This document shows positions 11,178 to 35,010 of a DNA stretch of 64,000 nt, one piece after another. The position numbers and the translations under genes were made by a program. The DNA is taken from assembly GCA_021773355.1 (NCBI GenBank), contig JAJFKE010000028.1, forward strand, positions 30,754 to 94,753, in the 5' to 3' direction. How positions within the stretch are numbered: position 1 is the first letter of the stretch; every line of letters begins with the position of its first letter. The notes under the pieces are model-generated. The model was not told the origin of the DNA. It made no database searches and worked only from the letters and a program-made list of their open reading frames with translations. The stretch comes from Gammaproteobacteria bacterium (GTDB lineage: Bacteria > Pseudomonadota > Gammaproteobacteria > Pseudomonadales > Pseudohongiellaceae).

Positions 11178-11770
11178 TAGATAACACCCGAAGAACCAGA
11201 TTCAACATTCATCAGCTCTGCCATTCGCTTTGCCAAATCAATGCGCGCTCTACTGGAGCGCGATTTCACCGTACCGACCGGCAGCGATAGAATTTCCGCA
11301 ACCTGTTCCAATTTCAATCCCTGAATATCTTTCAGCAACAGGATGTCCCGATTCGTTTCTGTAAACTCGCTCAGTGCCTGATACATGAGTCGCTGACGCT
11401 GCTCACGTACCGTGATTGCTTCCGGTGATTCGCTGGCACGTGGAGCGGATACTGCAGCCACCTCATATTCACCTTCATATTTTGTCCGCAACTTCGATCT
11501 ACGAATTCTATCCAGGCAGCAATTTCGAGTAATTGAGAGCAGCCACGGCAAGAATCCATCCGCCTCTCCCGCAAAGCGACCCAGAGCATTAAATACCTTG
11601 ATGAATACTTCCTGAGAAGCCTCCTGCGCCTCCGCTGTATTGCGTAAATAGTAGAACGAGACGCTATAGACTTTTGCTTGATAGCATTTCACCAGAGACT
11701 CCCAAGCCAGGGGATTGCCCTGCCGACACTGCGTGATGGTGCTTTCCAGATCCAGCGATTCGTTGCGCAA
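11177..11770 (-). CDS. ECF RNA polymerase sigma factor
   Basis: The 197-aa protein has sigma region 2 (EAQEASQEVFIKVFNALGRF, about residues 47-66, then WLLSITRNCCLDRIRR) and region 4 (about 130-185, LKLEQVAEILSLPVGTVKSRSSRAR). This is a standard two-domain ECF sigma with no C-terminal extension. The start appears to be TTG with a weak AAAGG upstream; no better ATG is available. It heads a three-gene operon with its anti-sigma and a membrane protein. Confidence 0.9.
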   Translation of the reverse strand: MRNESLDLESTITQCRQGNPLAWESLVKCYQAKVYSVSFYYLRNTAEAQEASQEVFIKVFNALGRFAGEADGFLPWLLSITRNCCLDRIRRSKLRTKYEGEYEVAAVSAPRASESPEAITVREQRQRLMYQALSEFTETNRDILLLKDIQGLKLEQVAEILSLPVGTVKSRSSRARIDLAKRMAELMNVESGSSGVI

Positions 11771-18592: not shown

Positions 18593-19399
18593 TTATTCGA
18601 GGTAAGAAGGAGCTAGATCGAGCGTTTCAGCAAGCTCTTTGCTGTGTTCGATCCAAAAAGTAGCCCCTGTTAATTCAAGCAGAGATTCAACTTTGTCCAT
18701 GGACATCAAAGTTTCCTCAATGCTGGTATTAAAAACGGGGGTTCGGCGCAATTCCCGGCTCGCCTCGAAATGGTAAAGGTCTCCCGAAAGTATCAGTGGA
18801 CCAAAACGGCTGAGCTCCAAATACAAAGATTGGTGACCTGGGGTGTGTCCTGGCGTTGAAATAATTTTGACCGAGCCATCACCGAAGACATCGTAGTCTC
18901 CGCTTAAGCTTATACGATTAGAGTCTCTGAGCTGTGAATATAATTCTGGTCTAAACACCGGATTATCTTCAGGATGTTCAAACGCAGCCGTGGCCTCCGC
19001 CTCCTGAATCAACAAAGTGGACTGATTAAAAGCATTGGCGGCACCGACATGGTCATAGTGCATGTGCGAAAAGGCAATAAAATCTATATCGGCCGGACTA
19101 ATGTTCATGGCTGCAAGTTGCTGCAGAAAAGATGTCTGGTAGCGGCTATTACCTCCGCTCTGCCCGACATCTGCAAGTGGTAAGCCCGCATCCCATACCA
19201 TCAAATGATCATCATGTTTAATCAAGTAGCAAGGCACGAATAATTCACGCACCGAGGTTTCTTCATTACTTAAACCAAATGCGGTCACATCTGGAAAGGA
19301 AAGCTGGCCGCAGTCGAACACATAGAGTTTTAAATCCGCATGCGCCAAGCTTGAAGTCAGTAACAATAGCAGAAGTAGAATCCTAGGGGCCCTAGACAT
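18593..19399 (-). CDS. Exported metallo-beta-lactamase-fold hydrolase, N-acyl-homoserine-lactonase-like
   Basis: The 268-aa protein has an N-terminal signal peptide (MSRAPRILLLLLLLTSSLAHA) and the full MBL metal set: SHMHYDHVG (HxHxDH), TPGHTPGH, SGDLYHF and a late IEHSKE histidine. The order and spacing fit the AiiA/AttM-like lactonase group, which opens lactone rings such as acyl-homoserine lactones. Secretion to the periplasm is unusual for quorum-quenching lactonases, so another lactone or ester is possible. I chose the ATG at 19399 because AGGAG lies seven bases upstream; the ORF extends further but without signal-peptide character. Confidence 0.82.
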   Translation of the reverse strand: MSRAPRILLLLLLLTSSLAHADLKLYVFDCGQLSFPDVTAFGLSNEETSVRELFVPCYLIKHDDHLMVWDAGLPLADVGQSGGNSRYQTSFLQQLAAMNISPADIDFIAFSHMHYDHVGAANAFNQSTLLIQEAEATAAFEHPEDNPVFRPELYSQLRDSNRISLSGDYDVFGDGSVKIISTPGHTPGHQSLYLELSRFGPLILSGDLYHFEASRELRRTPVFNTSIEETLMSMDKVESLLELTGATFWIEHSKELAETLDLAPSYLE

Positions 19400-19469
19400 T
19401 GACATTCTCCTATTAGATTGATCAACGTAATCGGTAAATACGTAATAAATTAGCCTGGGATAAATCACA

Positions 19470-19500
19470 GGATCAGGTTTCCATTTGCACGTCGTGGGTA
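19470..19500. repeat. Solo RAYT terminus remnant
   Basis: GGATCAGGTTTCCATTTGCA followed by CGTCGTGGGTA matches the transposase-side end of the RAYT elements with two differences. Nothing else of the element remains. It lies at the left border of the AT-rich biosynthetic island. Confidence 0.75.
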
Positions 19501-19565
19501 CAGCTTACTCTCACTCTCATCACTATTCATCTGTGCTGAGGGATGGCAAGCAAAAAGAGATGAGC

Positions 19566-19713
19566 GGGGACATTCACAACTTAACAACTTAAGGAAAACA
19601 AAGACCATCAAAAACTCGCAAACTGTGTACTTAATTGAATTCTCATGCTGGGAAATCACTCACTACCATTCACAATCAGCCCGGCACTAAGTTGTTATGC
19701 TGTGAACGTCCCC
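19566..19713. repeat. Inverted-repeat mini-element A, copy 2
   Basis: A 148-bp unit beginning GGGGACATTCACAAC and ending GTTGTTATGCTGTGAACGTCCCC-type tips. It shares scattered internal blocks (AAAGACCATC, ACTCGCAAAC, CTGGGAA) with the copy at 13480-13620. With the RAYT remnant just before it, this marks the left border of the biosynthetic island. The bases from 19714 to 20008 hold no other gene; they should contain the cluster promoter. Confidence 0.68.
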
Positions 19714-20008
19714 TGTAGCTTCACCTTTTCCCCTCTACGTTAAACAAGATCCATTAGATTATGAGTAACTTGTAGAGCCAGTATGAGCTCTTGTATCTCA
19801 ACAAAAACGTGAGAATGAAACATTTTTAACAAACGAGATCATACTTGTAATTCACAATGATTGACGACTTGTAGAAAATGGCTTCTGTAGTTATATTAAC
19901 AGTGGCCCAGTTTTAAGTGCTTTCGTATGTATCCACGCTGACTCAAAATGCGATAATAGCAATTTTATGGATTGCGTCAACACCGCGCGTTTTTATGGAG
20001 AAACACTA

Positions 20009-21229
20009 ATGTATCCAGAGTTGAATACAACATTAAGGGAGATGAAGGAGTACGCCTCAAAAGCGCTGTCCGAAAAAGCTAAATTAATGCCTGGCGTTGA
20101 TAATCTAAGTATCGGAGAGCCGGATTTCGGACCTCCCGAGGAACTATTACCAGGAATATTAGATGCTGTCTTAAACCAAGCAACATTTTTGGATTCAGTT
20201 AACAGATACGAAAGCTCTAGGGGGTCATTAGAATTACGGGTCGCCATAGCAAATTGGTATAACAGCCACTATGGCTTAAATATTGACGCGGAATCGGAAA
20301 TTCTTGTTACACATGGAGGAGTCGAAGCAATAGCACAATCTATCCTGAGTTGCACTCCATCGACGGGCGCGATAGCTGTAACAAATCCATCATACATGTT
20401 ATATGAAAGAAGTATCTCCACGCTTGGCCGTAAGTCACTATCATTGACGCGACCAACCGGCGGCAATGAATATGAGAAGTTATTCTCCCTCGAAGAAAAT
20501 CGTAAGTTGCTGACCGAAGCTGATGCACTAATAATAAATTCACCAGAAAATCCAACTGGCTATGTTCTAAGCGATGAGGATTGGTCCACCCTAAAAACGA
20601 ATGCTGACAAATTCGGTTTGTGGATTATTCATGACGAAGTCTACGATGCTATGTCGTTCGGTCGAAAACATTATCCCGCGATATCCAGAGAAGATCTGCA
20701 TGATCGGACGATAATGGTAAATAGCATGTCTAAGAAATTTGGAATTCCCGGCCTGCGAATAGGCTGGATGATCTCGAATGCTGGCGTGATTGACTTAGCC
20801 TGTAAGTCGCACGACTATCTATATTTGGGAGTCAATATATTGTTTGAGAAGGTAGCAACTCACCTGTTATCAGCTCCTAAAATTGATGAATGGCTTTTTC
20901 GTATCAACAATATGTTAGAAGAACGCATCGAAAATGCCATGACTAGAATGACACCAGCGCTGGGTTACGAATGGCCTCGTAGGCCAATGGGAGGAATGTT
21001 TCTATTCCCAAATGTGAGCAAGCTATATAATGCATTGCCCGAGGCCTATAGAAAGGAAAGCATTGGTGAGAGCGTCGCCTCGTACTTACTTTCTGAGAAA
21101 GGCGTTTCAACAGTTCCAGGTATCATTTATGGAGATCAATGTTCGGATTACATCAGACTAGTGCTATGTACTTCCGATGAGGTGTTTGTCCGTAGCATTG
21201 AGAAGTTAACCGCAGGGAATGTGCCATGA
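20009..21229 (+). CDS. PLP-dependent aminotransferase, class I/II (biosynthetic cluster)
   Basis: The 406-aa protein is a fold-type I enzyme. NSPENPTGYVLS contains the substrate-loop Asn, HDEVYDAM holds the cofactor-pyridine Asp and Tyr, and NSMSKKFGIPGLRIGW carries the Schiff-base lysine (Lys242). A late SDYIRLVLC supplies the substrate-carboxylate arginine. It is full length. The ATG at 20009 follows GGAG by eight bases. It opens a five-gene plus-strand run with the oxygenase, the unknown 456-aa protein, the NRPS and the ATP-grasp enzyme. It may supply or transaminate an unusual amino acid; cyclase-type chemistry, as in capreomycidine synthase, cannot be excluded. Confidence 0.9.
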   Translation: MYPELNTTLREMKEYASKALSEKAKLMPGVDNLSIGEPDFGPPEELLPGILDAVLNQATFLDSVNRYESSRGSLELRVAIANWYNSHYGLNIDAESEILVTHGGVEAIAQSILSCTPSTGAIAVTNPSYMLYERSISTLGRKSLSLTRPTGGNEYEKLFSLEENRKLLTEADALIINSPENPTGYVLSDEDWSTLKTNADKFGLWIIHDEVYDAMSFGRKHYPAISREDLHDRTIMVNSMSKKFGIPGLRIGWMISNAGVIDLACKSHDYLYLGVNILFEKVATHLLSAPKIDEWLFRINNMLEERIENAMTRMTPALGYEWPRRPMGGMFLFPNVSKLYNALPEAYRKESIGESVASYLLSEKGVSTVPGIIYGDQCSDYIRLVLCTSDEVFVRSIEKLTAGNVP

Positions 21230-21350
21230 CTTTCTAGTAATGATTGCTCCTCTATAAATTTAGCGGAATAAGAGGAAATTATTCTTGCTGATATAACAAG
21301 CATTCGAAAGCATAATGAAGTAAAGAACACCGAAAAATGGCGCAAATTTT

Positions 21351-22199
21351 GTGATATTGAGAAATCATCGCGATCAATTGGAAAAATTTGGATTCGTGGA
21401 GCTTCCAGGCTCATTGTCGCCATCCGACATTTCACGTCTCGAATATTTTTATTCCAAATTCTATGAAAAAAGTAAGTCAATACTGTATGAAATAAGGGAT
21501 AAAGCCACTACTATCTCGCAGTACTATTTGAATTCCACTGACAACCTCATAGTCGTTCCGGAAGAGTTAGATTCAAGTCTTATAAGCAGGATTGAGTACT
21601 TAACGGGAGCAAATGCGGACTTTCGTGGATTCGTTATTGACAATATTCAGCCAACAATCGAAGCGATAGTAGGGAAGGAACTGAATATATTCAAAGATAA
21701 GTGCAATCTTAAGCTCCCTGGGAGCGATGGTTTCCCCCCTCATCAAGACTATATTGCTTATCAACACTTTCCTCCTGACTACAACATAACCGCCATGATA
21801 CCTATTGACGACATGGATATCGAAAATGGCTGCGTCCAGTTCGCGAAAAATTACAGAGAATCGGCCTTTGTCAATTCAGCCAATGTAGAAAATATAGCTA
21901 GTGGCCAGCGAATATTTGATACTGATGATCGCGGAGGTATAGTAGCTGAGGTTGTGACTAAAATTAAGTGGCAGGCATCTACTCCGAATGCCGGAGATAT
22001 TGTCCTGTTCGACCACTTTATTCCTCATTTCTCACAAGCTAATATGACGCAGAGCCCGCGCAGAGCATACTTCATTACGTTTTCACTGGCGGAACAGGGA
22101 GATTGGTATGAATTTTATTTTGCGAATAAGAGAGAAAATTACAACTCGCCAAAATTTCACGTAGCAAATCCTACGGGCAATAAACCCTCCAGATCGTAA
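21351..22199 (+). CDS. PhyH-type Fe(II)/2-oxoglutarate oxygenase (biosynthetic cluster)
   Basis: The 282-aa protein is a phytanoyl-CoA-dioxygenase-like enzyme. The HxD pair is His131 and Asp133 in PPHQDYIAYQHF. The distal iron ligand is His226 in IPHFSQAN, followed by Arg237/Arg238 in the position that binds the 2-oxoglutarate carboxylate. All ligands are present, so it should be active. It probably hydroxylates, desaturates or epoxidises an amino acid that is free or tethered to the carrier domain of the NRPS. The start is uncertain: GTG at 21351 or the nearby TTG, with no clear ribosome-binding site. Confidence 0.88.
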   Translation: MILRNHRDQLEKFGFVELPGSLSPSDISRLEYFYSKFYEKSKSILYEIRDKATTISQYYLNSTDNLIVVPEELDSSLISRIEYLTGANADFRGFVIDNIQPTIEAIVGKELNIFKDKCNLKLPGSDGFPPHQDYIAYQHFPPDYNITAMIPIDDMDIENGCVQFAKNYRESAFVNSANVENIASGQRIFDTDDRGGIVAEVVTKIKWQASTPNAGDIVLFDHFIPHFSQANMTQSPRRAYFITFSLAEQGDWYEFYFANKRENYNSPKFHVANPTGNKPSRS

Positions 22200-22214
22200 C
22201 CGTAGAATCTCTGA

Positions 22215-23585
22215 ATGTTTATTCGAACAAACATGTCAGCACGCATAGGAGAAACCGTCAGTGCGGTGGAAGGGCTAAATTCACCTTTAGCGCGAAGCTG
22301 TCATGTTGGAAATAATACTTCAAATGTTTGGGGTATGCTGTCGATGTTCCCGAATTCCTTTCTACTCCTCTACGACCATACAGTTTATTCGTTAGACGAA
22401 AACTGCTTTCCCTGGCTAGTTTTAGACTCCAAAGGGTCAATCGCAAATTGTTACGACCACAAAGGAAATCCCGCTTCTTCGTGGAATGGGTGCGCGGTTA
22501 ATCATCACCTAAAGACTATGGAAAGAAAACCAAACATATTGAATTATGGAATATATGCCGAGCACGAGGGCGTCGATCTGTTCACTTGGCACTACAATCA
22601 AATTAGTAGTCTATCAAATAGGCTAAACGGCAGTGAGGTTCTAACTGATTCCCAAGCTTTACTTCAAGATATTGAATTATTGTCATCCGTAATTACCTAC
22701 TCAGCCGAGAATAAAGCTTTAGACCTTCTATTTAACAGGTGGGTATCAATATCGAAACGAGGCAACACAACAATCCAATCTATCAGTGACATAGCTTACA
22801 AAAACGGCGAAGTCCAAATTACGGTTCACGATCATGGCAAGGTATTTTCTGGCAGGGCAGATAAACTTATTCACCTCTTCGTTGAAAATATTAGTATTGT
22901 AGCAAACAGAACATCGGCAGGGGAAAGGGCTGTGATAAGTGGGTATCCATGGTTTACGCTTGGTTTTGCCTATATTGTTACAACAATGAGGGAGGCGAAA
23001 TTGTCTCCCGCACAAAAGGATTTCTATCATGCCGGAGGCTCTTCAAGTCAGTACTATATAAATAACCAAGTATTTCAGAGTGAATTCACCCGGTTGTGGA
23101 CTCATTTGGGTAATGAGGGATTCCTTCCTAGTGATGGCCAGCTTAGTATGATCCCCACATTTTGCTGTCAACTATTCGCAACAAGCCAGCAAGGGAAATC
23201 GTATATTAATCAATTGCTCGATATTTGGGACGATTTTTGCTCCAGGAATGCCGAGCAAATTGAGCTGCTAGTCGATGAACTTTCGGTGGCGACCAGCCCG
23301 TCTGATGCCGCGGCTAGCGCAACAACGCTTCTAAATCCAAACCAGAAGAAAGAAATAAAAAGTATAGTATTACTATTCAATGGCGTTGACAAAAATAAAC
23401 TCCCGGTGGCACACATTTCACAAGTAAACAGAATTAACTACAATAAATTTGGCGCACCTATGAAGTGCTTTTTTCAAACAGATTTCTTTTGGCCGCGTGA
23501 TCTGCAAAACTATTCATGGGCGAACATTGAATTATTTCTAAAAGTTATAAGTGAACTATTCTGTGACGACCCCGAGGCCTGGTAG
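22215..23585 (+). CDS. Unrecognised 456-aa protein in the biosynthetic cluster
   Basis: I recognise no domain. The protein is soluble, has no signal peptide or membrane segment, and mixes beta-rich N-terminal sequence (FLLLYDHTVYSL, FPWLVLDSKG) with helical C-terminal sequence (SWANIELFLKVISELF). Possible functional residues include a His-rich NGCAVNHHLK stretch and DFYHAGGSSSQYYINNQ. It starts 15 bases after the oxygenase stop and ends five bases before the NRPS start, so it is certainly part of the operon. It could be a new enzyme class that acts on the carrier-bound intermediate or releases the product. Confidence 0.8.
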   Translation: MFIRTNMSARIGETVSAVEGLNSPLARSCHVGNNTSNVWGMLSMFPNSFLLLYDHTVYSLDENCFPWLVLDSKGSIANCYDHKGNPASSWNGCAVNHHLKTMERKPNILNYGIYAEHEGVDLFTWHYNQISSLSNRLNGSEVLTDSQALLQDIELLSSVITYSAENKALDLLFNRWVSISKRGNTTIQSISDIAYKNGEVQITVHDHGKVFSGRADKLIHLFVENISIVANRTSAGERAVISGYPWFTLGFAYIVTTMREAKLSPAQKDFYHAGGSSSQYYINNQVFQSEFTRLWTHLGNEGFLPSDGQLSMIPTFCCQLFATSQQGKSYINQLLDIWDDFCSRNAEQIELLVDELSVATSPSDAAASATTLLNPNQKKEIKSIVLLFNGVDKNKLPVAHISQVNRINYNKFGAPMKCFFQTDFFWPRDLQNYSWANIELFLKVISELFCDDPEAW

Positions 23586-23590
23586 TTTTA

Positions 23591-26500
23591 GTGAAGATTT
23601 CCAGATACTATCCGAAACTTCCCAGCGAGAATTATGAAATTTTTTTGGCATCGAGTACCAGGTATTCTTTGTGGAATAGCCTGCTCTATGCGGCGCAAAT
23701 AAATCCGGACCGCATTGCCATAGAATGTAAAGAAGAAATAACCTACAAGCAATTATATCAATGTGTAGAAGAACTAATTTCTAAAATCACAATTGAAAAA
23801 AATACTGTTGTTCTACTGATTTATCCAAGAGGAATTGAATTCGTTGTGGCAATGTTGGCGGCGATCGCCCGAAACTGTATTTTTGTACCAATTGATTCAT
23901 CCATTAGTGCTTCGAAATTACGGCACATTAACAAAGAATTGCAGCCGAGTTCTATACTGATCTCCAAGCAAGATATGCCAGATAATCAATTTGAGGAGTA
24001 CCTAAGCGATTTTCGAGAATGCCAGGGTAACGAGAAGCATATCCACCTAAAGCGATCTGTCGCCCCCCATAACATTAGTAAACTGTGTTCCGATGGATAC
24101 ATAATGTATACGTCAGGGTCAACTGGAAGACCTAAAGGAGTAATACAAAGCCAATCAGGGCTACTTTCCCAAATCAGAAACTATATACAATCAATAAAAA
24201 TCAGTTCTAACGACCGACTATCTTTGTTCGCACCAATTCCAACCGATGCGGCTTTTATGGACATATTCGGCTCGCTGTTGAGTGGGGCAACATTGTGTAT
24301 CTGCACTATATACGCATCAAATTTTCCAACAATCGCCAACTGGGTAGAACGAAATCGAATATCCATATTTCACTCAATCCCAACCTTGTACCGGTATTTC
24401 GCGAACTGCTACTCCAATTCGAATAGTGAACGCTCTCTCCGACTTATAGTTCTAGGAGGGGAACCTGTACGAAAACAGGACCTGGAACTATTTCAAAGAA
24501 AATTTCCTGCATCGGTTATTCTGTGCAACGGCTACGGGCCTACCGAGTGCACAGTCGCATTACAGTGCTTTTTCGAGATAGATGAGGATAAACACCTACC
24601 GAATGAAATCCCTATTGGCTGGCCAGTTGAAGGAGTAGGTTTATCTTTTGTCAGCTATAGCTCTACGGACACAGGAAACACGGGCGAACTGCGACTGAAA
24701 TCAAAAAGCATTGCCCTTGGTTATGTTTCGATGGAACAGGCTTCAAATTCGATTGAACTTTCTACTGAGGATTCATTCTACAATACCGGAGATTTAGTTC
24801 GTCAAGACAGAATTGGAATTTACTATTATGTCGGGCGAATAGATTCACGATTTAAGGTGAATGGCAATTGGATTAATAGTTTGGAAGTTGAACGTGATCT
24901 TATCGAAAAACTTCAGCTTGAGGACTGCGTGCTAATACTTGATGAGAGCGATAGTCTTCAGGCGTTTACCGTTTTCATAAAACCCCCTTCCACGAATGTC
25001 CTAGACGATGAGCACTGGATTTCATTAGTTCGAGAGTTCTCTGATTCAGACATCCCCATCAAGACGATTACAATTGAAACTGAATTCCCTAAGACAGATA
25101 GCGGGAAAATTGATCACATAAAACTTGCTCATTCGATCAGAAGTAAAAACCCTCGTCTCCCTACCAACACCGATATTGCAAGAATATTTTCTGAAGCACT
25201 TAATTGTTCCGTCAATACCGAAACAATCATAACGGCGCAGATCGCACTGAACTCAATTGACATACTCGAAATACTGGGAGAAATAGAAACAAAACTCGGT
25301 GTTAATGTAGCACTATTTGAATTCTTTGATTTCCCCTCAGCCGATCTTTTAGCCCAGCACCTGCTGTCCCGGGAAAAGCAAAACAAGATACGGCCTCCAA
25401 ATCAATACCCGCCCATCGAATACTCTAGCAGTTTTGACTTGTCCCCAGGACAGTTCAGATATTGGGAAAGGAGAGATGAATTGGATCACCGGGCTTGGAA
25501 CTTGATTTATATCACTGAATTCAAGGCCAATATCAGGAAGCAGGATATAGAGGTAGCTCTGGCGAAAACAATTCAGGCTTCCCCTCTCTTAACTGCAAGA
25601 ATACTAGGAGGCTCACAACCAAGTCACGACATTAGCCCGTGTGAATTCAACAGTTTTCGACTTGATACTTCAAGCAACGTTCAGCTGGCAACAGAATCGT
25701 ATAGGGAAATGAAACTTCCATTGGATGAAGGCTCTTTATTTCGTGCAACACTTGTCGAGGATGAAGAGGATAGGATTCACCTGGTTTGGAGTGCACACCA
25801 TATTGTATTTGACGCATGGTCACGAAATCTTTTCACAAATCAGTTGCATTTGAATTTGTGCAATAGAGAGAATGACGGTTTTGGAGGTTTTGAATATCGA
25901 GATTTTGTTGATGAACGCATCGAAGAAATTGAAAGCTTGGATATAGAGTCTAGACTGAAACTGCTGGAAGCATCTATCAACCATCACGATAACAGAATAC
26001 CCGTCAACAACTCCGCTTCTGAATGTGGTGTAACTTCGGAAAAATCCCATGCTAGATACAGATTATTGAGTAAAGCGTGTAGAAAGTTGAAAGTATCTCC
26101 ATTCACATATTCTTCTATGGTGTTTAGAGTTTTCATTCTGCTCATAACTGGCTCGGAATCATCCCTATTGACTACGGATCTGACTCAGAGATCTAGAAAA
26201 AAATGGAATAATGTTATTGGGCTATTCACAGAAGTTCTCATCCTCCCTAATACAATAGCTATAAATTCTTCGTTTGAAGTGAATGTTCTAAATGAAGCAA
26301 CTCGCTTGACCTTCGCTTTAAAAGAATCCCATTTACCACTAAAAAATGTTTTTGACAGCATTCTTCCGGGAGAGCTAAAGAATTACCATTGCCATCTCCC
26401 TTTCGCTATTTTTTATGAAAAAGAGAATTTGGATGGAGAACACGATAGTGTGTGGGCTATTACCAGGGAAGCTAGTGAATCAGCTACTACCAGGCCGTTG

Positions 26501-26671
26501 ATTCTGGTAGTTTCAGAAGAATCCGATACCATTACTCTTAGCCTCGAAAGTATGCAGGGATACTTTTACAAACAAGACCTCGAATTACATCTTAAGTCTC
26601 TATGTTCTCTATTTGATATTTTTTTGCAAGATTCTGCCACACCAATACAAAAACTACTTCGAGAATTCTGA
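23591..26671 (+). CDS. Nonribosomal peptide synthetase, A-T-C order
   Basis: The 1026-aa protein starts with an adenylation domain: YTSGSTGRPKG at 173-183, Asp219 in PTDAAFMD at the usual amino-group-binding position, NGYGPTE, YNTGDL, and Lys506 in PKTDSGKID. A carrier domain follows (Ser555 in ALNSIDILE), then a condensation domain (LSPGQFRYW, HHIVFDAWS with His737 as the catalytic candidate, IGLFTEVLILP). There is no thioesterase or reductase domain. The C-terminal condensation domain would pass the single loaded amino acid to a free amine acceptor. The carrier core reads LNSI instead of the usual GGDSI/L but keeps the serine. Start GTG, five bases after the previous gene. Confidence 0.93.
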   Translation: MKISRYYPKLPSENYEIFLASSTRYSLWNSLLYAAQINPDRIAIECKEEITYKQLYQCVEELISKITIEKNTVVLLIYPRGIEFVVAMLAAIARNCIFVPIDSSISASKLRHINKELQPSSILISKQDMPDNQFEEYLSDFRECQGNEKHIHLKRSVAPHNISKLCSDGYIMYTSGSTGRPKGVIQSQSGLLSQIRNYIQSIKISSNDRLSLFAPIPTDAAFMDIFGSLLSGATLCICTIYASNFPTIANWVERNRISIFHSIPTLYRYFANCYSNSNSERSLRLIVLGGEPVRKQDLELFQRKFPASVILCNGYGPTECTVALQCFFEIDEDKHLPNEIPIGWPVEGVGLSFVSYSSTDTGNTGELRLKSKSIALGYVSMEQASNSIELSTEDSFYNTGDLVRQDRIGIYYYVGRIDSRFKVNGNWINSLEVERDLIEKLQLEDCVLILDESDSLQAFTVFIKPPSTNVLDDEHWISLVREFSDSDIPIKTITIETEFPKTDSGKIDHIKLAHSIRSKNPRLPTNTDIARIFSEALNCSVNTETIITAQIALNSIDILEILGEIETKLGVNVALFEFFDFPSADLLAQHLLSREKQNKIRPPNQYPPIEYSSSFDLSPGQFRYWERRDELDHRAWNLIYITEFKANIRKQDIEVALAKTIQASPLLTARILGGSQPSHDISPCEFNSFRLDTSSNVQLATESYREMKLPLDEGSLFRATLVEDEEDRIHLVWSAHHIVFDAWSRNLFTNQLHLNLCNRENDGFGGFEYRDFVDERIEEIESLDIESRLKLLEASINHHDNRIPVNNSASECGVTSEKSHARYRLLSKACRKLKVSPFTYSSMVFRVFILLITGSESSLLTTDLTQRSRKKWNNVIGLFTEVLILPNTIAINSSFEVNVLNEATRLTFALKESHLPLKNVFDSILPGELKNYHCHLPFAIFYEKENLDGEHDSVWAITREASESATTRPLILVVSEESDTITLSLESMQGYFYKQDLELHLKSLCSLFDIFLQDSATPIQKLLREF

Positions 26672-26672
26672 A

Positions 26673-27578
26673 ATGGCCAACGTAGCCATTGTCTATGTAT
26701 CAAAAGAAGACACTCCCTTTAAAGAAGCCATATCTGAATCGTTTATTTGCGATCTTGCCAGTATGCTGTCAGCTAAGGGGCACATTCAGGGCATTTTCAA
26801 ATTTTCGCCATCAAGCGAATTTCTTAAACATATTTCTATGTTTAGGCCAGATGTGGTGCTTAATCTGGCTTATGGCTATGAGATGGACGGAATTCGTATA
26901 GACCAGGCCGCTATAGCAAATTCACTTGAAAAAATTAATTGCAGGTTAATTGGCTCTAATAGTTCTGCCCTATCCCTCGTTCAGGACAAAGTTAGGTGCT
27001 CTGAAATATTAAGATCACAGGGCGTTCGAGTAGCACGATCAATAATTATGGGAGACGATTTGCCACCGACTTGGAAATGTATTATTAAGCCTCGATTTGG
27101 GGGGTGCCATAGGGACATCAGAATTAGCGAGTACTCTCAACTATCCGAAGACGATTTCGACTTGTCGAAGTACATTGTTGAGGATTACATTTCCGGGAGG
27201 GAGTTCACAATTGGCTTGTATGAGAGCGATGCTGGTTTGACTGCATTTAAACCATTGGAAATTGAATTTGCGGCTAGTGAAAAAATACGGATTTTGGGAG
27301 ATCATCACCCTGCTGTTAGCTATGCTCACCTTGATAGAGACGAATTCCACCTCCGGGATACTGCAAAATCCGCCTTTTCAATATTGTCTCTGTCGGATTA
27401 CTCCAGAATGGATTTCCGTGTAAACGACGATAATGAAGCATTCCTCATCGATGTTAATGGCTTACCAAATTTGGATCCCGAGCGCAGCTTTCTCCCAATG
27501 ATTGCACTGGAAAATGGTGTTGCTATCCAAGATCTAATGATTTCGATTATTGATCACAAATTGAGTTCAGTATTGTAG
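26673..27578 (+). CDS. ATP-grasp ligase, D-Ala-D-Ala-ligase-like (biosynthetic cluster)
   Basis: The 301-aa protein follows the Ddl plan: an N-terminal domain (RPDVVLNLAYGYEMDGIRID), the central GSNSSALSLVQDKVR, the IIKPRFGG lysine loop, the VEDYISGREFTIGLY adenine-binding strand, and a metal-binding end SRMDFRVNDDNEAFLIDVNG. The usual EVN is DVN, a conservative change. These enzymes join an acyl phosphate to an amine, forming a peptide or amide bond. The start lies one base after the NRPS stop (TGAAATG), so the genes are tightly coupled. It probably makes the acceptor dipeptide or adds the last residue; a peptidoglycan role is unlikely in this context. Confidence 0.9.
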   Translation: MANVAIVYVSKEDTPFKEAISESFICDLASMLSAKGHIQGIFKFSPSSEFLKHISMFRPDVVLNLAYGYEMDGIRIDQAAIANSLEKINCRLIGSNSSALSLVQDKVRCSEILRSQGVRVARSIIMGDDLPPTWKCIIKPRFGGCHRDIRISEYSQLSEDDFDLSKYIVEDYISGREFTIGLYESDAGLTAFKPLEIEFAASEKIRILGDHHPAVSYAHLDRDEFHLRDTAKSAFSILSLSDYSRMDFRVNDDNEAFLIDVNGLPNLDPERSFLPMIALENGVAIQDLMISIIDHKLSSVL

Positions 27579-29014
27579 CGCTCTGCAATTTCCTCCCGTG
27601 GTATAGCGAAGTCATTTATAAGTGAGCCAACTTCTGGGTAAGCTAGGCTTATATGAATATGCAAATTAGTAATCGATATATGAATGCATTCCGAACTATT
27701 GATTGATGTGGTCAATTCTCGCAAAGTAGCTAATTCTAGCTTTCGCATTTTTGAGTCTGAGATGGTACCCGTCTCCATTAGATGCATCGCCTTCTTAAAC
27801 TGAACACATAGCCTAAAATGATCCCTTAATATACACAGGACTGCTAGTTCATGATGCATGCGGAGAAGATCATCTGTTTCACTCAAAAAACCAATATCTT
27901 TACCGAAAAACCCCTCCATATCAGTAAAAAATTTCCCCACTAGATTAACTACCACTTCATCCTTAATAAGAAACCAGCCATATCTCTTGCTCCGATAATC
28001 CATTGCCGCCGCATATTCTCCTTCTGCTGATCTAACAAATTTCTCGTTGATATCGCCTATCTTTATCCAATAGAAGCCCTCGGAAGGAATTTCTATAGTC
28101 GAACACGAAATTAATTCTAAGTGTCTTTTAGCGTCTAATAAGAGCTGATCATGGGTTTCCACAAGCTCCGACATGTTAGTTGATATCGCTCTCACAATTT
28201 CGCAGAGCTGCTGATCACTTGCAGCAGTTTCGAAATATAGTGCTCTAATATTACTAGGCGTCCATCTCAACTCATTGCACGGAACCCCCTGATAGTGCGG
28301 CGTATCAGAAGCCTGACTAATGAAACTCAAATTTTCAAAAGTTTCATCGGGCCATGCTACAGAGGCCCAGGTCGGAGTAAATTTGATTTTTGATTTGCCA
28401 AGCTGGCTTTCTGAAGCCCGCACAGCATGGTTTGCATAACGCTCCGATTGGCCACCAATATTCCTTTTGAGATAAGTCGACAGCGTAGAATAGATTGGTT
28501 CGCCCAAGCTCGGTACAATCGAGTCAAAAAATGAGCGCTCGAGATCCGGTCGACTTTTTAGTAGCTCCAACAAGCGAGCTTTTTGTATCTTCGTTCGCTC
28601 AAATAGTGTTCCTGCCCCCTTCACTTCCAGTTGCAATTCCAACTTCCCATTCCCCCAGCCTAGTGACGATAGATCCAAAAACGCAACATCCTTGACCATG
28701 CCGAGCTGGTTGACCGAAGCAGGGTTGATCAGGAATGTTCGCCCTCCTGTCATCTGAGCTTGTACTTCAACTCTCTCATTCTGTGTCGAAAGTGCTGGGG
28801 GCGTAAACGAATATATTGGTGTGGTGGAACCAGAAAGACCCGTATCTACATAACGCAAATAATTCTTGCCCAACTCCTTCACCCTTTCATCTGCTGGACA
28901 TACATGCAAGTTTACTTTCAAGAAGCGATCATCATAATGTTTCCAATACATCACTTCCGTGTTGTCGGGGAGAAAACTACCTTTGTAATAGCCCATATCG
29001 ATTTGCCACCGCAT
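27554..29014 (-). CDS. Unrecognised 486-aa protein, convergent with the biosynthetic operon
   Basis: No family is recognised. The protein is soluble, with a beta-rich first half and a long helical C-terminal half (about residues 280-470). It has the same AT-rich composition as the operon it faces, and its 3' end overlaps the ATP-grasp gene by 25 bases, so it probably arrived with the cluster. The start is uncertain: the ATG at 29014 or the next ATG six codons on, neither with a clear ribosome-binding site. A regulator, immunity protein or additional enzyme are all open. Confidence 0.7.
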   Translation of the reverse strand: MRWQIDMGYYKGSFLPDNTEVMYWKHYDDRFLKVNLHVCPADERVKELGKNYLRYVDTGLSGSTTPIYSFTPPALSTQNERVEVQAQMTGGRTFLINPASVNQLGMVKDVAFLDLSSLGWGNGKLELQLEVKGAGTLFERTKIQKARLLELLKSRPDLERSFFDSIVPSLGEPIYSTLSTYLKRNIGGQSERYANHAVRASESQLGKSKIKFTPTWASVAWPDETFENLSFISQASDTPHYQGVPCNELRWTPSNIRALYFETAASDQQLCEIVRAISTNMSELVETHDQLLLDAKRHLELISCSTIEIPSEGFYWIKIGDINEKFVRSAEGEYAAAMDYRSKRYGWFLIKDEVVVNLVGKFFTDMEGFFGKDIGFLSETDDLLRMHHELAVLCILRDHFRLCVQFKKAMHLMETGTISDSKMRKLELATLRELTTSINSSECIHISITNLHIHISLAYPEVGSLINDFAIPREEIAERYNTELNL

Positions 29015-29122: not shown

Positions 29123-29746
29123 TTATCCTGGGCGGCCCATGCTGAATAGTGACTCGCCATCCACCCGAGTATAGTCGTTATAACCCAACCTGCCGATGAC
29201 CAGCATTTTCATCACATCAACCAAGCCTTCCTCAGTGATAAACTCGTCATCTATGTGAATCCCCACCACCTCGCCAAATATAACTCTGTAGGCATCTGCC
29301 TCAGTCCAGCCGGGAATCTCCACGCTCTTCAGGTAACGGCACTCAAGATGTACCGGCGCTTCTTTAATGCGCGGGGCATTAACTAGTTTGGAGGGGATAG
29401 CGGTCAAGCCCGACAGGCTTATCTCATCACAATCCGGGGGCAGTGCCTCTGATGATTTATTCATTTTCTCACGCGTGTCCCAGGTGGCCAGATTGCAAAC
29501 AAACTCGCCCATGGATTCAATATTCCTTACCGAGTCTTTCAGGCCATCTGCGGCCGAACCCACGCCACCGGAAAACATGACAGTGGGCGGGCTGTAACTC
29601 ACTGCATTGAAAAAGCTGTAGGGTGCGAGATTGCGTACGCCCGTTTTATCCGTGGAGCTGATCCAGCCGATGGGTCGCGGGATGATCAAACTGTTGAAAG
29701 GATTTTGGGGCAGTCCGTGGTTTTTCTTCTTGGGTTCGTAAAACAT
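29123..29746 (-). CDS. Flavin reductase family protein (FMN-binding split barrel)
   Basis: The 207-aa protein matches the DIM6/NTAB flavin reductase-like family: IPRPIGWISSTDKTGVRNLAPYS near the start is the flavin-phosphate loop region, followed by SYSPPTVMFSGG and the conserved EFVCNLAT. Members bind FMN and reduce it, or use it to act on small substrates, in the cytoplasm. The length is normal. Composition returns to that of the core genome here, so the biosynthetic island ends before this gene. Confidence 0.88.
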   Translation of the reverse strand: MFYEPKKKNHGLPQNPFNSLIIPRPIGWISSTDKTGVRNLAPYSFFNAVSYSPPTVMFSGGVGSAADGLKDSVRNIESMGEFVCNLATWDTREKMNKSSEALPPDCDEISLSGLTAIPSKLVNAPRIKEAPVHLECRYLKSVEIPGWTEADAYRVIFGEVVGIHIDDEFITEEGLVDVMKMLVIGRLGYNDYTRVDGESLFSMGRPG

Positions 29747-29861
29747 AGAGATACAATTCTAAAATTGATTGACGAAAGCAAAGCAAAGAGCGGAACGAAT
29801 CAATGTTCTGTGGCTTCTACCGCAAGTGGGAAGTAACTAGTTTTTATAATTTGGTAACAAA

Positions 29862-30389
29862 TCATCGTTCATCGCGCTGCAATTCTTTCTTGAATTGCTT
29901 GAATTTCTTAACATAGATGTCAGCGCTCTTAAGCAAGTCTGCTTGCTGTTCAGCTGATAAAGTCTTAACCACTTTAGCAGGCGAGCCCATCACCAAGGAG
30001 CCATCGGGAATCTCCTTGTTTTCGGTAACCAGGCTGTTCGCCCCTATCAAGCAATTGTTACCTATCTTGGCGCCGTTAAGAACTACCGCATTAATTCCAA
30101 TAAGAGAGTTATCACCGATAGTACAACCATGCAGCATCGCCTTATGGCCTATGGTAACGTTCTTACCGATTGTCAGTGGGGAGCCGTAATCGGTGTGCAG
30201 CACCGCGCCGTCCTGTACATTAGAATTTTCACCGACGGTGATTAATTCATTGTCACCGCGTATGACGGCGTTAAACCAAACGCTGGCGTTGTTCTTCAAC
30301 CTTACTAAGCCAATCACATCGGCACTGTCGGCGACGAAATAGTCATCACCTTGAATATCCACTTCAAACTCACCCAAACGGTACAACAT
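29862..30389 (-). CDS. Gamma-class carbonic anhydrase family protein (left-handed beta-helix)
   Basis: The 175-aa protein is built of hexapeptide repeats (for example [21 protein letters not shown]) that form a left-handed beta-helix. It has the histidines expected for the zinc site of gamma carbonic anhydrases (one in LHTDYG and two in [10 protein letters not shown]). This is the YrdA/PaaY-like group found next to many genes; activity ranges from CO2 hydration to thioesterase. The ATG has GGAG upstream. It is adjacent to the interrupted tRNA-Gly gene. Confidence 0.9.
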
Positions 30390-30460
30390 TATTTACTCCG
30401 TAATTCTATTTCCAATTCCAGGCTTATTGGCGCAGAATCATTGTTCGCAAAAAAGACAAA

Positions 30461-30610
30461 GCGAGTGTAACTCAGTTGGTAGAGTACTAGCTTCCCAAGC
30501 TAGTTGTCGCTAGTTCGACAAGCGCGAAGCGCGCAGCACGACCGAAGGTCGCCCGCAGGGTGAGGAATTTGGCTTAGCCAAATTCCGAATGACCCTCGTC
30601 GCCCGCTCCA
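30461..30610 (+). tRNA. tRNA-Gly(CCC), T-arm interrupted by about 74 nt of palindromes
   Basis: The 5' part (30461-30518) has an acceptor strand GCGAGTG, a D-arm ACTC...GAGT, a perfect anticodon stem CTAGC/GCTAG around TTCCCAA (anticodon CCC, glycine) and the TTCGA of the T-loop. The 3' part (about 30593-30610) gives the T-stem strand, the acceptor strand CGCCCGC and an encoded TCCA. Removing about 74 bases leaves 76, the normal length. The acceptor stem has one A-C mismatch and the T-stem one mismatch, so the gene may be decaying. The insert holds three hairpins (see the repeat entry). Confidence 0.72.
30519..30592 (+). repeat. Palindrome-rich insert inside the tRNA-Gly T-arm
   Basis: Three stems in a row: GCGC/GCGC around 30522-30532, CGACC/GGTCG at 30539-30551, and an 11-bp perfect stem GGAATTTGGCT/AGCCAAATTCC at 30564-30586. 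The last is nested inside an AGGGT/ACCCT pair (about 30557-30596), whose outer arm reaches into the tRNA 3' part. There is no room for a protein or a group I intron. Confidence 0.75.
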
Positions 30611-30644
30611 ATTTAGTAGTAAAAAGGATAGATCTATTTTTTGT

Positions 30645-31076
30645 TCACGAACGTGGGTCCAACCTTAGAAAATAGCGCGGCGGAAACCCAGTTCGAAACC
30701 TAAACTCAAATCCAAAACTATAAACCTCGCGTATGTGTTCTTCTTCAGCTCCTTCCAAGGAGACGGCTAAGTATGGCTGAAATGAATCCTCACCCGGCAT
30801 CTTTACTTCCACATTGGGATTAGCCAATGCCTGTCTATACCAGGCGCGGGGCCAATGATTGGCAGCAATATAATTATTGCCGTCAATCTGTTCCAAACGC
30901 AGCACCCGTTCGTGACGATCGTTGTCTTCGTTGAAGGTTGCTATGACTAATGAGGTACTGCCCTGCGGTTGGTTGTATCCGAGCCTAGCTTCGAACCAGA
31001 CGATGGAACCTATGTAGGCCAGGAACAACACACCTGCTGCGACCAGTGACCACTTTAGGGTCTTGTTGTTTTTCAT
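30645..31076 (-). CDS. Membrane-anchored split-barrel (deazaflavin/nitroreductase-like) protein
   Basis: The 143-aa protein has one N-terminal membrane segment (WSLVAAGVLFLAYIGSIVW), then a domain with the PRAWYRQALANPNVEV stretch typical of the DUF385-like, F420/PPOX split-barrel group. It probably faces the periplasm. Two distant relatives with the same plan occur at 49457-49975 and 58113-58604. Cofactor and substrate are unknown. Confidence 0.65.
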   Translation of the reverse strand: MKNNKTLKWSLVAAGVLFLAYIGSIVWFEARLGYNQPQGSTSLVIATFNEDNDRHERVLRLEQIDGNNYIAANHWPRAWYRQALANPNVEVKMPGEDSFQPYLAVSLEGAEEEHIREVYSFGFEFRFRTGFPPRYFLRLDPRS

Positions 31077-31139
31077 TATTGGTTCTCGTTATTTTATAGG
31101 TGGTGCTCGATCACACATTTTTTACATCAATCGAATTGC

Positions 31140-32912
31140 TTATGGCAAACGAAACACGTACAAGGTATTCCCACCTGCGCGCTGGCGAATCTCTGGCGTG
31201 TGTCGTCGGTAGTTAACGCCCTCGCCTGCCGCAATGGCAATATACTGCACTCCATCCACGCTATAGCTCACGGGAAAACCACCGGCCGTGGAGTTAAGAA
31301 TTTGCTCCCAAAGAATGTCGCCGCTGTCGGCATCGAAGGCACGAAATCGTCTGGCGTCGTCGCTGACAAAAACCAGTCCACCGCCGGTGGTTAACACGGA
31401 ACCACCGATGCCGGCTCGTTGCCGGTAGGTCCAGCGGGTTTCACCGGTGGCCACATCGATCGAGGTAAATTGTCCTACCTGTCCGGTATCCTCAGGCCCA
31501 AGCTCGGGACTGTTTCTGGCGGATGCGTGGTGTAGGCCTACAGTGGGTGTCACCGGCCTTAGGGCGTAATTCATGCAGGTGTTATTGCTTGGCGTATACA
31601 GAGAGTTAGTCTGTGGACTGTAACCGACAGAGTTCCAGTTAATACCGCCCTGAGCAGTTGGGCACACCAGTTTCTGCTGCCCAATTTCGGTGATATCTAT
31701 CTCAGGATTGGTGATGCCCTTGCGCCCTTCTATGTCCACGCCAACGATTACGTTCTGATAGTTAGTCTCGGTTGCCCACAGGAACTCGCCAGTGGCCGCA
31801 TCCAGTGTCCACACGATGCCGGGCTTGCCGGGAATACCTGTGATGACTTTGCGTCGTTCGCTGGAGGCGATGTTTGGATTCATCCAGGACACAGCATCGG
31901 CATCGGGTGTGACTTCGGTTTCTACTATTAAACGCTCGAAGGGATGGTCCTGATCCCAGTTGCCAGCGGGAATATGTTGGAAGTACCAGGCAATTTCGCC
32001 AGTCTCTGCATCCAGAGCCAAGGTGGAGTTAGTGTACAACACATCGCCGCCCCGGGTACCGCGCTGAATTTCACCCCAGGGAATGGGCACTGCCACACCG
32101 ATAAAAATAAGATTGAGCTCGGAGTCGAAACTGGCTGGCATCCAGGCCGAGCCGCCGCGGCGCCGTTCGTTGGGAACGTCTCCCCAGCTTTCACCGTTGG
32201 GTTCACCAATCTTTGGTACGGTGTTGGTACGCCACAACTCTTCGCCGGTGTCGGCATCGTGGGCAGTAATCCAGCAGCTGGTATTGATGTAGTAACAGCC
32301 GGACATGCCGGTGATAACTTTGCCGTTGAACACCTGTGGACCGCCGGAATAATGTTGGCCCACTGTCCAATCACCGATCTGTCGCTCCCAGGTGACTTCA
32401 CCACTGGTGGCGTTTAACGACACTATGTAAGCATCGCGGGTGGCGATAAGTAATTGATCTTTATACAGGGTGCCATTGCGGTTTGCGCAGGACAGCGGCG
32501 CAGCATGATCGACGGTTGGCCTTCGATATTCCCACAGCGGCGTACCATCGGTGGCGTCCACGGCCTCGATAAAGTCACAGGCCTGGGGCAGAAACATAAT
32601 GCCGTCGTGTACCAGGGGCGTGGTCTCCTGCTTGCCGGGCTCCATGGTCCAGGACCAGGCCAGACGCAGGCTGTCTACGTTATCCTTGTTGATCTGATCC
32701 AGCGGACTAAAGGCCCAATGGTTGGGCGTGCCGCGCCACATCAGCCAATCACCTGCCGGCGGGTTTGCTAACTCTTCCAGAGTAACCGGGGTGTAGTTAT
32801 CCAATAGATCCTGTTGCGCGCTGGCAATGGACATGATTGAGGCGAACGCAATGGCAAAGGTTGCCAAGACAAGTCTGGATAGAGAATGCTGGCGAGCAGA
32901 ACGGATGGGCAT
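31140..32912 (-). CDS. PQQ-dependent dehydrogenase (quinoprotein, eight-bladed propeller)
   Basis: The 590-aa protein has a signal peptide ending in SIASA and the repeated tryptophan-docking motifs of quinoproteins (for example AVDATDGTPLWEYRRP, ALDAETGEIAWYF, AFDADSGDILWEQ). GNWDQD carries the catalytic aspartate region. It oxidises an alcohol or sugar in the periplasm and passes electrons to a cytochrome or quinone. There is no fused cytochrome c domain, and the adjacent-cysteine disulfide of methanol dehydrogenases is absent; instead two cysteines lie near CYYINTSC. No PQQ synthesis genes are in the window. Confidence 0.92.
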   Translation of the reverse strand: MPIRSARQHSLSRLVLATFAIAFASIMSIASAQQDLLDNYTPVTLEELANPPAGDWLMWRGTPNHWAFSPLDQINKDNVDSLRLAWSWTMEPGKQETTPLVHDGIMFLPQACDFIEAVDATDGTPLWEYRRPTVDHAAPLSCANRNGTLYKDQLLIATRDAYIVSLNATSGEVTWERQIGDWTVGQHYSGGPQVFNGKVITGMSGCYYINTSCWITAHDADTGEELWRTNTVPKIGEPNGESWGDVPNERRRGGSAWMPASFDSELNLIFIGVAVPIPWGEIQRGTRGGDVLYTNSTLALDAETGEIAWYFQHIPAGNWDQDHPFERLIVETEVTPDADAVSWMNPNIASSERRKVITGIPGKPGIVWTLDAATGEFLWATETNYQNVIVGVDIEGRKGITNPEIDITEIGQQKLVCPTAQGGINWNSVGYSPQTNSLYTPSNNTCMNYALRPVTPTVGLHHASARNSPELGPEDTGQVGQFTSIDVATGETRWTYRQRAGIGGSVLTTGGGLVFVSDDARRFRAFDADSGDILWEQILNSTAGGFPVSYSVDGVQYIAIAAGEGVNYRRHTPEIRQRAGGNTLYVFRLP

Positions 32913-33137: not shown

Positions 33138-34059
33138 TCAGTTACCGAAAACCTCTTTCAGATTTACAATCAGCTTCTCGCGTATTTCTTCGCCGGCTTT
33201 GTCCAGATTCAATTCTTTCCATCGTACCGCTGGCAAATATTGAGCATCGCTATTATTTAACAAACTCCAAGTAGGGGTTCTTGAATAGAACGAAGCGAGA
33301 AATTTCTTGTGTGCATCGGACATATTCTCCACAACATTGTCTATCAAAGACTGTCGCTCCGCTAATAGCAAATCAAGTAGCGCCTCCTCTTGGGTCATGC
33401 CAAGGAAGTTGTTTTCATACTCCTGAGAAATGTCTTTTAATCTGGGAGCAAGCATTGTATGAGGCGGACTGTCGTGACTTATTAGGTACACGATAATAGC
33501 TTCGCGCAAGTCTTCATTTATGCCTTCATTGCTTAGCAGCAAATGTACGTCAAACAGATCTCTAGGGTGTTGTCGGTCAAGTGCCGCCATGATTTTTCCT
33601 GCATACAAATCGGCAAAAGAAAGAACCTTTATTTCGGCAAAACCGTATTCGTCTTCTACAGGTTCAGATACCCTCATCGTTATCGGGTCGAATACGCATT
33701 CACGCATTACCGGCGAAAGCTCAATTTTAATCTGTGTTCGATCTCGTGTACGGATAACAAGTTTATTGATAGTTTCCTGTGTCTGGGGCGCGGACTCGAT
33801 TATATGAATAGTCGCATCCATTTTCCTTATGCGTCCGCCTATGCGTTTCAGAGCTGCATCGATCTCGGTTAAGGCCTGCGCTCTGTCTGCGGTTGGCAGG
33901 TAAGTGAGGTCGATATCCACCGAGAGTCTTGGCAGATCACGAACAAATAAATTAATGGCGGTTCCACCTTTATAAGGCGAAACATTCTTCCTCTGCTACC
34001 AGCGGCAATGTTCGCATCAACAGCGCGACCTGGCGTTCAAACTTTTCTTCGAACGCCAT
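33138..34059 (-). pseudogene. abiEii: AbiEii-type nucleotidyltransferase toxin, frameshifted near its N-terminus
   Basis: An ATG at 34059, overlapping the AbiEi stop (TAATG), opens a frame (MAFEEKFERQVALLMRTLPL and on to ECFAL) that stops at 33970. One extra T at about 33972 breaks it. Without that base, translation continues as KGGTAINLFVRDLPRLSVDI and joins the 33138-33920 frame. The rejoined protein would have the nucleotidyltransferase GG-x10-DxD core and a full-length AbiEii C-terminal domain. AbiEii stalls growth by modifying tRNA acceptor ends or a similar target. The frameshift may be real decay, phase variation or a sequencing error in the TATAAAGG stretch. Confidence 0.85.
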
Positions 34060-34934
34060 TAGAATTTCTCCGGCACTGTGATCTGATATTTGGAATCCAA
34101 TTTTCCACCTTTAACCAATACCCGCTTACCCTTGCCCAAGCCTATTTTATTTTTCTCGATGTGATGCAACCAACCATGTTGATGACGATCAGCGAAGAAA
34201 AAGAACAGACGCTTTACCTTGATGCTAGTACAGTCTTCCAGCAGAGCTTGCATGCTAGCGGGACGCACATTAACCAAGCTTTCCATGATGACATCCACAC
34301 CATGAAAGCTCTCTGCCTTAGGCAATTCATCTAACAGTTCCAGAATAGCCCGTTCCGGTGTGGACACGGTGAGGGGCCACTTAAATTGGCCCCAGGGCAG
34401 CTGCTGTAAGTGACCCTGCAGTTTCTTTCCCTGTTTGAACTGTAGAAGTTCATCTATTGAATTTACGTTTGTGGATTCTATTGATGTTTCTATTGGACTC
34501 GGCACCAATGCAGGTTTGATAGCCGGTGCTATCTCTGGCAGAAAACGACCACGATTGTGGATGGCGAATTTGGTTTCTAACGTCAAATTGCCAAGCCAAC
34601 CTGGCACTTTCTGCTGCGTATATAGATGTACCTTATTTTGCGACTGAGGCAGGTAGTGTGCATAGCCTTGCTCTTCAAGCGCGGTGCGTCCGCCTACTGA
34701 AACGGGGAAATTGAGCAGACATTGCAAAGAGATCACCACTTGCTCCCAGACCATGTTGCCGCGCGGGCGTCGGAATACGCCATGTGCCGGGCGCTGCAAC
34801 CACCCCGCGTCTACGTATTGCTTACGCAGGGAGCGGGAATAGCCCTGTTGCTCCATCCAGCTCGCATCTATCAATAAACCTTCGGGTAGGCTCTGCTCCA
34901 AATAGTTCAACTTTGATGTGTTTTGTATAGCCAT
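34059..34934 (-). CDS. abiEi: AbiEi-type antitoxin / transcriptional repressor
   Basis: The 291-aa protein has an N-terminal winged-helix domain (DASWMEQQGYSRSLRKQYVDAG, then a GVFRRPRG wing) and the larger C-terminal domain of AbiEi antitoxins (VSVGGRTALEEQGYAHYLP, TVSTPERAILELLDELP). AbiEi represses its operon by binding inverted repeats and neutralises AbiEii. The ATG at 34934 lies inside the proximal inverted repeat; the TTG three codons upstream is less likely. The gene overlaps the toxin start by one base. It is intact while the toxin is broken, the order of loss expected for a toxin-antitoxin pair. Confidence 0.9.
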   Translation of the reverse strand: MAIQNTSKLNYLEQSLPEGLLIDASWMEQQGYSRSLRKQYVDAGWLQRPAHGVFRRPRGNMVWEQVVISLQCLLNFPVSVGGRTALEEQGYAHYLPQSQNKVHLYTQQKVPGWLGNLTLETKFAIHNRGRFLPEIAPAIKPALVPSPIETSIESTNVNSIDELLQFKQGKKLQGHLQQLPWGQFKWPLTVSTPERAILELLDELPKAESFHGVDVIMESLVNVRPASMQALLEDCTSIKVKRLFFFFADRHQHGWLHHIEKNKIGLGKGKRVLVKGGKLDSKYQITVPEKF

Positions 34935-35010
34935 ACTGTACAAAATAGAGATTGTTCAAACTAAATGCAAGTTTATATTTCACATGATTTGTATAGGAGG
35001 GCTATACAAA
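34921..35010 (-). promoter_or_regulatory. Two AbiEi operator inverted repeats
   Basis: TTTTGTATAG...TGTACAAAAT at 34921-34946 overlaps the abiEi start codon. TTTGTATAG...CTATACAAA at 34988-35010 is a closely matching second inverted repeat about 45 bases upstream. Paired inverted repeats are the known binding arrangement of AbiEi antitoxins. Confidence 0.72.

Follow-up and report, generated by a model that had tools for sequence, protein, structure and literature searches.

A biosynthetic gene cluster with a core in two bacterial phyla and two protein families outside Pfam and NCBIfam

What is assembled by a nonribosomal peptide synthetase (NRPS) that ends in a condensation domain and is encoded in one cluster with an ATP-grasp ligase and two proteins that match no family library searched? 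The question is raised by a biosynthetic island at about positions 20009-29014 of a 64,000-nucleotide stretch (the window) of contig JAJFKE010000028.1, from a Gammaproteobacteria bacterium of the Pseudohongiellaceae (assembly GCA_021773355.1). Its genes form a biosynthetic cluster, the core of which occurs in two phyla and consists of a protein here called U1, an adenylation-carrier-condensation (A-T-C) NRPS, an ATP-grasp ligase of the D-Ala-D-Ala-ligase type (Ddl-like) and a protein here called U2. We tentatively propose, at somewhat under an even chance, that it makes a small amide-linked metabolite, with U1 acting as a tRNA-independent, class I synthetase-like ligase beside an NRPS whose terminal C domain releases onto a soluble amine. 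Within this proposal the predicted fold of U1 is likelier than the whole, and the detailed order of steps is less likely.

Five genes lie on the plus strand (20009-27578) with intergenic gaps of 121, 15, 5 and 1 bases, in that order, and the sixth, encoding U2, lies on the minus strand, tail-to-tail with the ATP-grasp gene and overlapping its end by 25 bases. The gene order, the strands and the gaps of 1 to 121 bases given in the initial annotation are confirmed by the open reading frame (ORF) coordinates, and its description of a biosynthetic island with an A-T-C synthetase lacking a release domain agrees with the Pfam domains. The genes are as follows.

20009..21229, plus strand: pyridoxal phosphate (PLP)-dependent enzyme nearest GntC, 406 amino acids (aa) from the ATG at 20009 (Pfam Aminotran_1_2, NCBIfam GntC)
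21351..22199, plus strand: PhyH-type Fe(II)/2-oxoglutarate oxygenase, 282 aa (Pfam PhyH, 53.9 bits)
22215..23585, plus strand: U1, 456 aa, predicted tRNA-independent aminoacyl-AMP ligase (no Pfam family)
23591..26671, plus strand: NRPS, 1026 aa, A-T-C by Pfam, without a release domain
26673..27578, plus strand: ATP-grasp ligase, Ddl-like, 301 aa (Pfam Dala_Dala_lig_C, 49.3 bits); its longest ORF opens at TTG 26613, ATG 26673 being the better fit
27554..29014, minus strand: U2, 486 aa, predicted SelO/YdiU-type kinase fold (in none of the libraries searched)

Recurrence of the core in a second phylum

A scan of a genome collection (84,980 species) with two peptide patterns, which may have missed members, gave seven pattern matches and two confirmed loci, L010 and L011, both in the Acidobacteria metagenome-assembled genome (MAG) HKST-UBA06. 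The phylum of this MAG differs from that of the window; the 99 genomes listed for the one and the 60 listed for the other have none in common. At L011 the whole core is present:

515-1426, plus strand: ATP-grasp gene, tail-to-tail with U2
2 bp from the ATP-grasp gene, minus strand: U2
6564-9932, minus strand: A-T-C NRPS
9986-11362, plus strand: U1

The same locus holds two more ATP-grasp genes and a gene with a weak, sub-cut-off AMP-binding match. Identity between window and L011 is 37% for U1, 44% for U2 and 26% over 1070 columns for the NRPS, and the window's ATP-grasp protein is 30.1% and 28.2% identical to two of the L011 ATP-grasp proteins. At L010, U1 lies 29 bp from a protein with ketosynthase, acyltransferase, ketoreductase, dehydratase, carrier and condensation domains (KS-AT-KR-DH-T-C), an ABC transporter lies on its other side, and the contig carries no U2. 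So, U1 adjoins an NRPS that ends in a C domain in all three readable loci and U2 and an ATP-grasp gene are present in two of them, the sample being three loci of which two come from one MAG. Co-occurrence, the check proposed for the island, is supported for the core, which recurs in another phylum. It is not supported for all six genes as one co-conserved unit, as the aminotransferase-type enzyme and the PhyH oxygenase have counterparts at neither L010 nor L011.

The assembly line at L010 (2246-15523) is a hybrid, in which a luciferase-like monooxygenase, an A domain carrying an FkbM methyltransferase and a T domain are followed by KS-AT-KR-DH-T-C. The two L010 synthetase ORFs scanned, one of which is cut by the locus end, gave no thioesterase domain.

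Both families are rare. U1 was found in one of 274 genomes of the window's class and one of 390 of its order (the window's own both times), and in one of 396 genomes of the phylum of the Acidobacteria MAG (that MAG); U2 was found in one of 58 relatives (the window's own) and in one of 148 genomes of the class of the MAG (again that MAG). In the 390-, 396- and 148-genome samples, which were searched with the alignments, scoring was confined to the top few candidates of each genome. Neither family was found on viral contigs or on plasmids. Five of the 23 U2 database entries, the window included, could be paired with a U1 entry by an equal-size source contig, which is a proxy for linkage, and two such contigs are shorter than 8.2 kb.

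All three NRPS domains of the window exceed their own Pfam cut-offs:

23690..25135, plus strand: adenylation domain (AMP-binding, 186.7 bits)
25175..25363, plus strand: carrier (T) domain with the degenerate core LNSID (PP-binding, 22.9 bits; cut-off 20.8)
25439..26653, plus strand: terminal condensation domain with HHIVFDA (Condensation, 64.4 bits)

Between the window and L011 the A domains share 150 of 470 aligned residues (32%). Their pockets, taken by hand from the alignment at what we presume to be the GrsA specificity positions, read D A M H V G G V (+K) in the window and D A M H V G A T (+K) in L011. Agreement at six of the eight variable positions suggests one substrate for both, so that the A domain may load the same amino acid in the two phyla. 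The initial annotation regarded all key residues of the island's enzymes as present, and this holds for the PLP lysine, the HxD and histidine of PhyH and the paired histidines of the C domain, but not throughout the NRPS; the carrier core is LNSID in place of GGDSL, with the serine retained, and the condensation motif is HHxxxDA, not HHxxxDG.

Predicted folds of U1 and U2

Two of the proteins were at first said to match nothing. This is right for the family libraries, as neither U1 nor U2 matches a Pfam or NCBIfam family, but not for the modelled folds, which were assigned from the structural matches listed by VIA-align. U1 is predicted to have a HUP/class I synthetase fold like that of BshC and the class I tRNA synthetases, and U2 a SelO/YdiU-type kinase fold. 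These fold assignments move the likely logic of the island towards tRNA-independent synthetase-type ligation. By sequence, the BshC profile PF10079 matched 0 of 21 U1 members and the SelO/YdiU profile PF02696 matched 0 of 23 U2 members, an hmmscan of the same members against Pfam returned only scattered matches in one member each, searches of PDB sequences with the U1 and U2 profiles gave nothing below E 0.3, and U1 had no match in BFVD at E <= 0.001. Profile-profile comparison found no link for U1/BshC, U1/class I lysyl-tRNA synthetase (LysRS) or U2/SelO, the unrelated pair U2/BshC scoring slightly higher; with these shallow alignments it is uninformative, because the known related pair BshC/LysRS failed as well. 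Forced global alignment was of no help either.

In U2 the invariant residues are K132-G-x-G (28621-28610), D352 (27961-27959) and D365 (27922-27920). At the level of sequence, K132, G133, G135 and D365 resemble the pattern of the KGAG lysine and the DYG aspartate of SelO. The residue following D352 varies among members, whereas SelO has a metal-binding asparagine at the equivalent position. The canonical SelO family has no match in the window's genome. Next among the structural matches of U2, only slightly above kinases, are amide-forming NRPS-independent siderophore (NIS) synthetases, AcsD, SbnC, AlcC, DfoC and IucA being named as the near systems.

Two readings of U2 follow. It may be an adenylating ligase, as suggested by the NIS synthetases coming next among its structural matches, or it may transfer AMP as a regulator or accessory protein. 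If the latter, U2 would have no biosynthetic role but would regulate or protect the cell, by AMPylating a host protein or by modifying the product, and would be linked to the core for immunity and not for a bond-forming step. In favour of this, SelO is reported to AMPylate proteins (PMC12663964), the U2 strand is opposite to that of its ATP-grasp neighbour in both the window and L011, and the L010 contig lacks U2 altogether. Against it stand the likeness to the amide-forming NIS synthetases, slight as its lead over kinases is, and the SelO-like proteins MchC and MceJ, which serve microcin maturation, MchC being required for it (PMC3281104). We regard this alternative as somewhat unlikely; it is compatible with the proposed role of U1. 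From the SelO/YdiU pseudokinase AMPylases and from MchC/MceJ, U2 in any case differs in the lack of a PF02696 match and in the variable residue after D352.

Three conserved elements were located in U1, whose relatives measure 440-483 aa:

22302..22316, plus strand: HVGNN, residues 30-34, HIGH-like (HxGNN in 27 of 27 family members)
23028..23048, plus strand: HAGGSSS, residues 272-278, candidate nucleotide-site element (H[AG][AG]G in 27 of 27 members; block predicted local distance difference test score, pLDDT, 73)
23439..23453, plus strand: YNKFG, residues 409-413, candidate KMSKS-like mobile loop (kept in 27 of 27 members)

HVGNN sits between the strand at residues 25-30 and the helix at 37-44 of the model (block pLDDT 74). 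YNKFG begins in the block of lowest confidence (residues 401-410, mean pLDDT 56), and the motif looked for at this candidate loop occurs in 0 of 27 members, an invariant [FY]NK[FY]G being found instead. If NKxG is that loop, only 43 residues follow it (after residue 413 of 456), which would leave little room there for an anticodon-binding domain; none was found in U1 by a Pfam domain search.

How far does the likeness to class I synthetases reach? The structural alignment of U1 with BshC has 7% identity, and the resemblance could be that of a common Rossmann-type arrangement only, with a different chemistry; we think this unlikely. It is distinctly unlikely that U1 is a cyclodipeptide synthase (CDPS)-like protein or another consumer of aminoacyl-tRNA that hands an aminoacyl group to the NRPS-bound residue. 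The CDPSs have lost the HIGH motif (PMC2922099), whereas all 27 U1 members keep HxGNN at the HIGH-like position, the two CDPS chains listed are of 224 and 231 aa and so far shorter than the U1 relatives, and U1 reaches a structural Z against BshC and LysRS that is roughly double its Z against CDPS.

For class I LysRS a HIGN motif was expected, but a pattern search did not find it at the expected place in the 14 LysRS loci of the window's phylum, and the argument based on it was dropped.

The proposed route and its precedents

U1 would adenylate an amino acid and pass the aminoacyl group to an amine, as MshC does. The A-T-C protein would load one residue, and its terminal C domain would join this residue to a soluble amine, perhaps what U1 makes or an amine related to it; by analogy such direct condensation is plausible, and terminal C domains that release onto free amines occur elsewhere. 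The ATP-grasp enzyme would add a further residue through an amide, and U2 would transfer AMP or activate a carboxylate. A bolder form of this route would have three unrelated ATP-dependent folds working on one small molecule, with U1 as a stand-alone HIGH-motif ligase feeding a C domain directly, U2 as the first SelO-fold enzyme to adenylate a small-molecule carboxylate for an amide, and the ATP-grasp ligase; this we consider doubtful.

BshC, the cysteine-adding enzyme of bacillithiol synthesis, is a structural match of U1 in spite of the missing PF10079 matches and is not known to be a partner of NRPSs. MshC of mycothiol synthesis is a class I synthetase relative that joins cysteine to an amine, and it was argued in 2010 that class I synthetase-like proteins act as peptide ligases (both PMC2922099). 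PyrN, in which a methionyl-tRNA synthetase (MetRS)-like domain joins glutamate to the N-hydroxyl of hydroxylysine, is active without tRNA or with RNase (PMC8664883). The azaserine cluster combines a MetRS-like protein with the NRPS AzsO (cyclisation, adenylation and carrier domains, Cy-A-CP) and an ATP-grasp gene (PMC10445470). In being tRNA-independent ligases of natural-product clusters, the MetRS-like PyrN, Spb40 and AzsN (PMC2922099; PMC8664883; PMC10445470) resemble U1 as read here. However, U1 matches no synthetase Pfam model, the island has neither a cupin nor a lysine N-hydroxylase, and PyrN forms an ester with an N-hydroxyl group, whereas U1 is proposed to transfer to an amine.

Against a linkage of U1 and U2, several long contigs carry only the one or only the other family. 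Azaserine provides no precedent for the proposed release step, because serine, the acceptor there, sits on the NRPS carrier and the product is freed by a thioesterase (PMC10445470).

A nearest likeness to dapdiamide synthesis had been suggested initially. In dapdiamide-type clusters a carrier-bound substrate is oxidised and the enzymes for 2,3-diaminopropionate are encoded in the cluster. Such a plan, with carrier-tethered oxidation by PhyH, ATP-grasp ligation and U1 and U2 as mere accessories, would fit an island that combines an Fe/2-oxoglutarate-type oxygenase with an ATP-grasp ligase and with a carrier domain, but it is very unlikely, since the core with U1 and U2 stands at L011 without a counterpart of this oxygenase, the island synthetase has a C domain, and none of the six island proteins matches by Pfam a diaminopropionate-forming family.

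Few ligases derived from synthetases act outside translation, and the known ones opened new chemistry (mycothiol and the hydrazine-forming PyrN). That synthetase-like ligases occur in natural-product clusters is already known as a general idea; the interest lies in U1 and U2 themselves, two families outside Pfam and NCBIfam with confident structure models, which in two phyla go with a single NRPS architecture. If the proposed reading is true, U1 would be a sequence handle for a further family of tRNA-independent ligases, and with U2 the SelO-type enzymes would reach into the assembly of small molecules. Among the matches listed, judged by title and the start of the abstract, the open-access literature held no description of either family and no NRPS cluster with such a BshC-like, SelO-like or GntC/PhyH/ATP-grasp combination, the nearest being PMC2922099.

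Tailoring genes, composition and borders

The PLP enzyme scores 142.8 bits to Pfam Aminotran_1_2 and has its PLP lysine in SMSKKFG. Its top NCBIfam model is GntC, the PLP cyclodehydratase of the guanitoxin pathway, at 212.9 bits, with the next model 57 bits behind (155.4); identity with GntC itself is rejected, as the equivalog cut-off is 415 bits. The PhyH oxygenase has HxD at residue 131 and the distal histidine. According to its model title (gamma-hydroxyarginine cyclodehydratase), GntC acts on a hydroxylated arginine, which makes it plausible that a PhyH hydroxylase and, after it, a GntC-like enzyme work as a pair. Here the two probably provide an amino acid in hydroxylated or cyclised form, as an add-on outside the core; without counterparts at the related loci they look like local tailoring.

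The shift in composition, first noted from 60-base samples picked by eye, is real: G+C content (GC) is 41.6% in 20009-29014 and 49.3% in the remainder of the window, and the five 9-kb windows of lowest GC begin at 19001-19801. Rarity, low GC and occurrence in two phyla together suggest horizontal spread of the island. The left border was credited with mobile-repeat remnants, which are not borne out; there is a single repeat, as follows.

19566..19713, no strand: imperfect inverted repeat with 26-nucleotide arms (19566-19591 and 19688-19713; 88%), bordering the AT-rich stretch on its left

Its core, GGGGACRTTCAC, stands at both ends. With at most one mismatch this core occurs twice in the window, in the two arms (0.42 expected; five shuffles reach 2), and no exact match was found in the 76 loci fetched. 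Promoter and terminator scans gave chance level only.

To the right of the island (29123-32912) lie a flavin reductase, a hexapeptide-repeat protein, a 143-aa protein and a pyrroloquinoline quinone (PQQ)-type beta-propeller enzyme. The flavin reductase is present in 38 of 61 genomes of the same genus, and of the 11 loci examined from that genus, five keep the three further genes next to it. In the five flank stretches read, the island side of the flavin reductase differs from one to the next, and within about 15 kb it holds none of the ORFs (at least 120 aa) of the window's left flank, so that a clean insertion (empty) site is not demonstrable.

The window's genome (5.08 Mb in 55 contigs) contains 18 condensation-domain matches on eight contigs, the window's own included. 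About 4 kb to the right of the island, at 33138-34943 on the minus strand, lies an AbiEii/AbiEi pair of the type IV toxin-antitoxin/abortive infection class.

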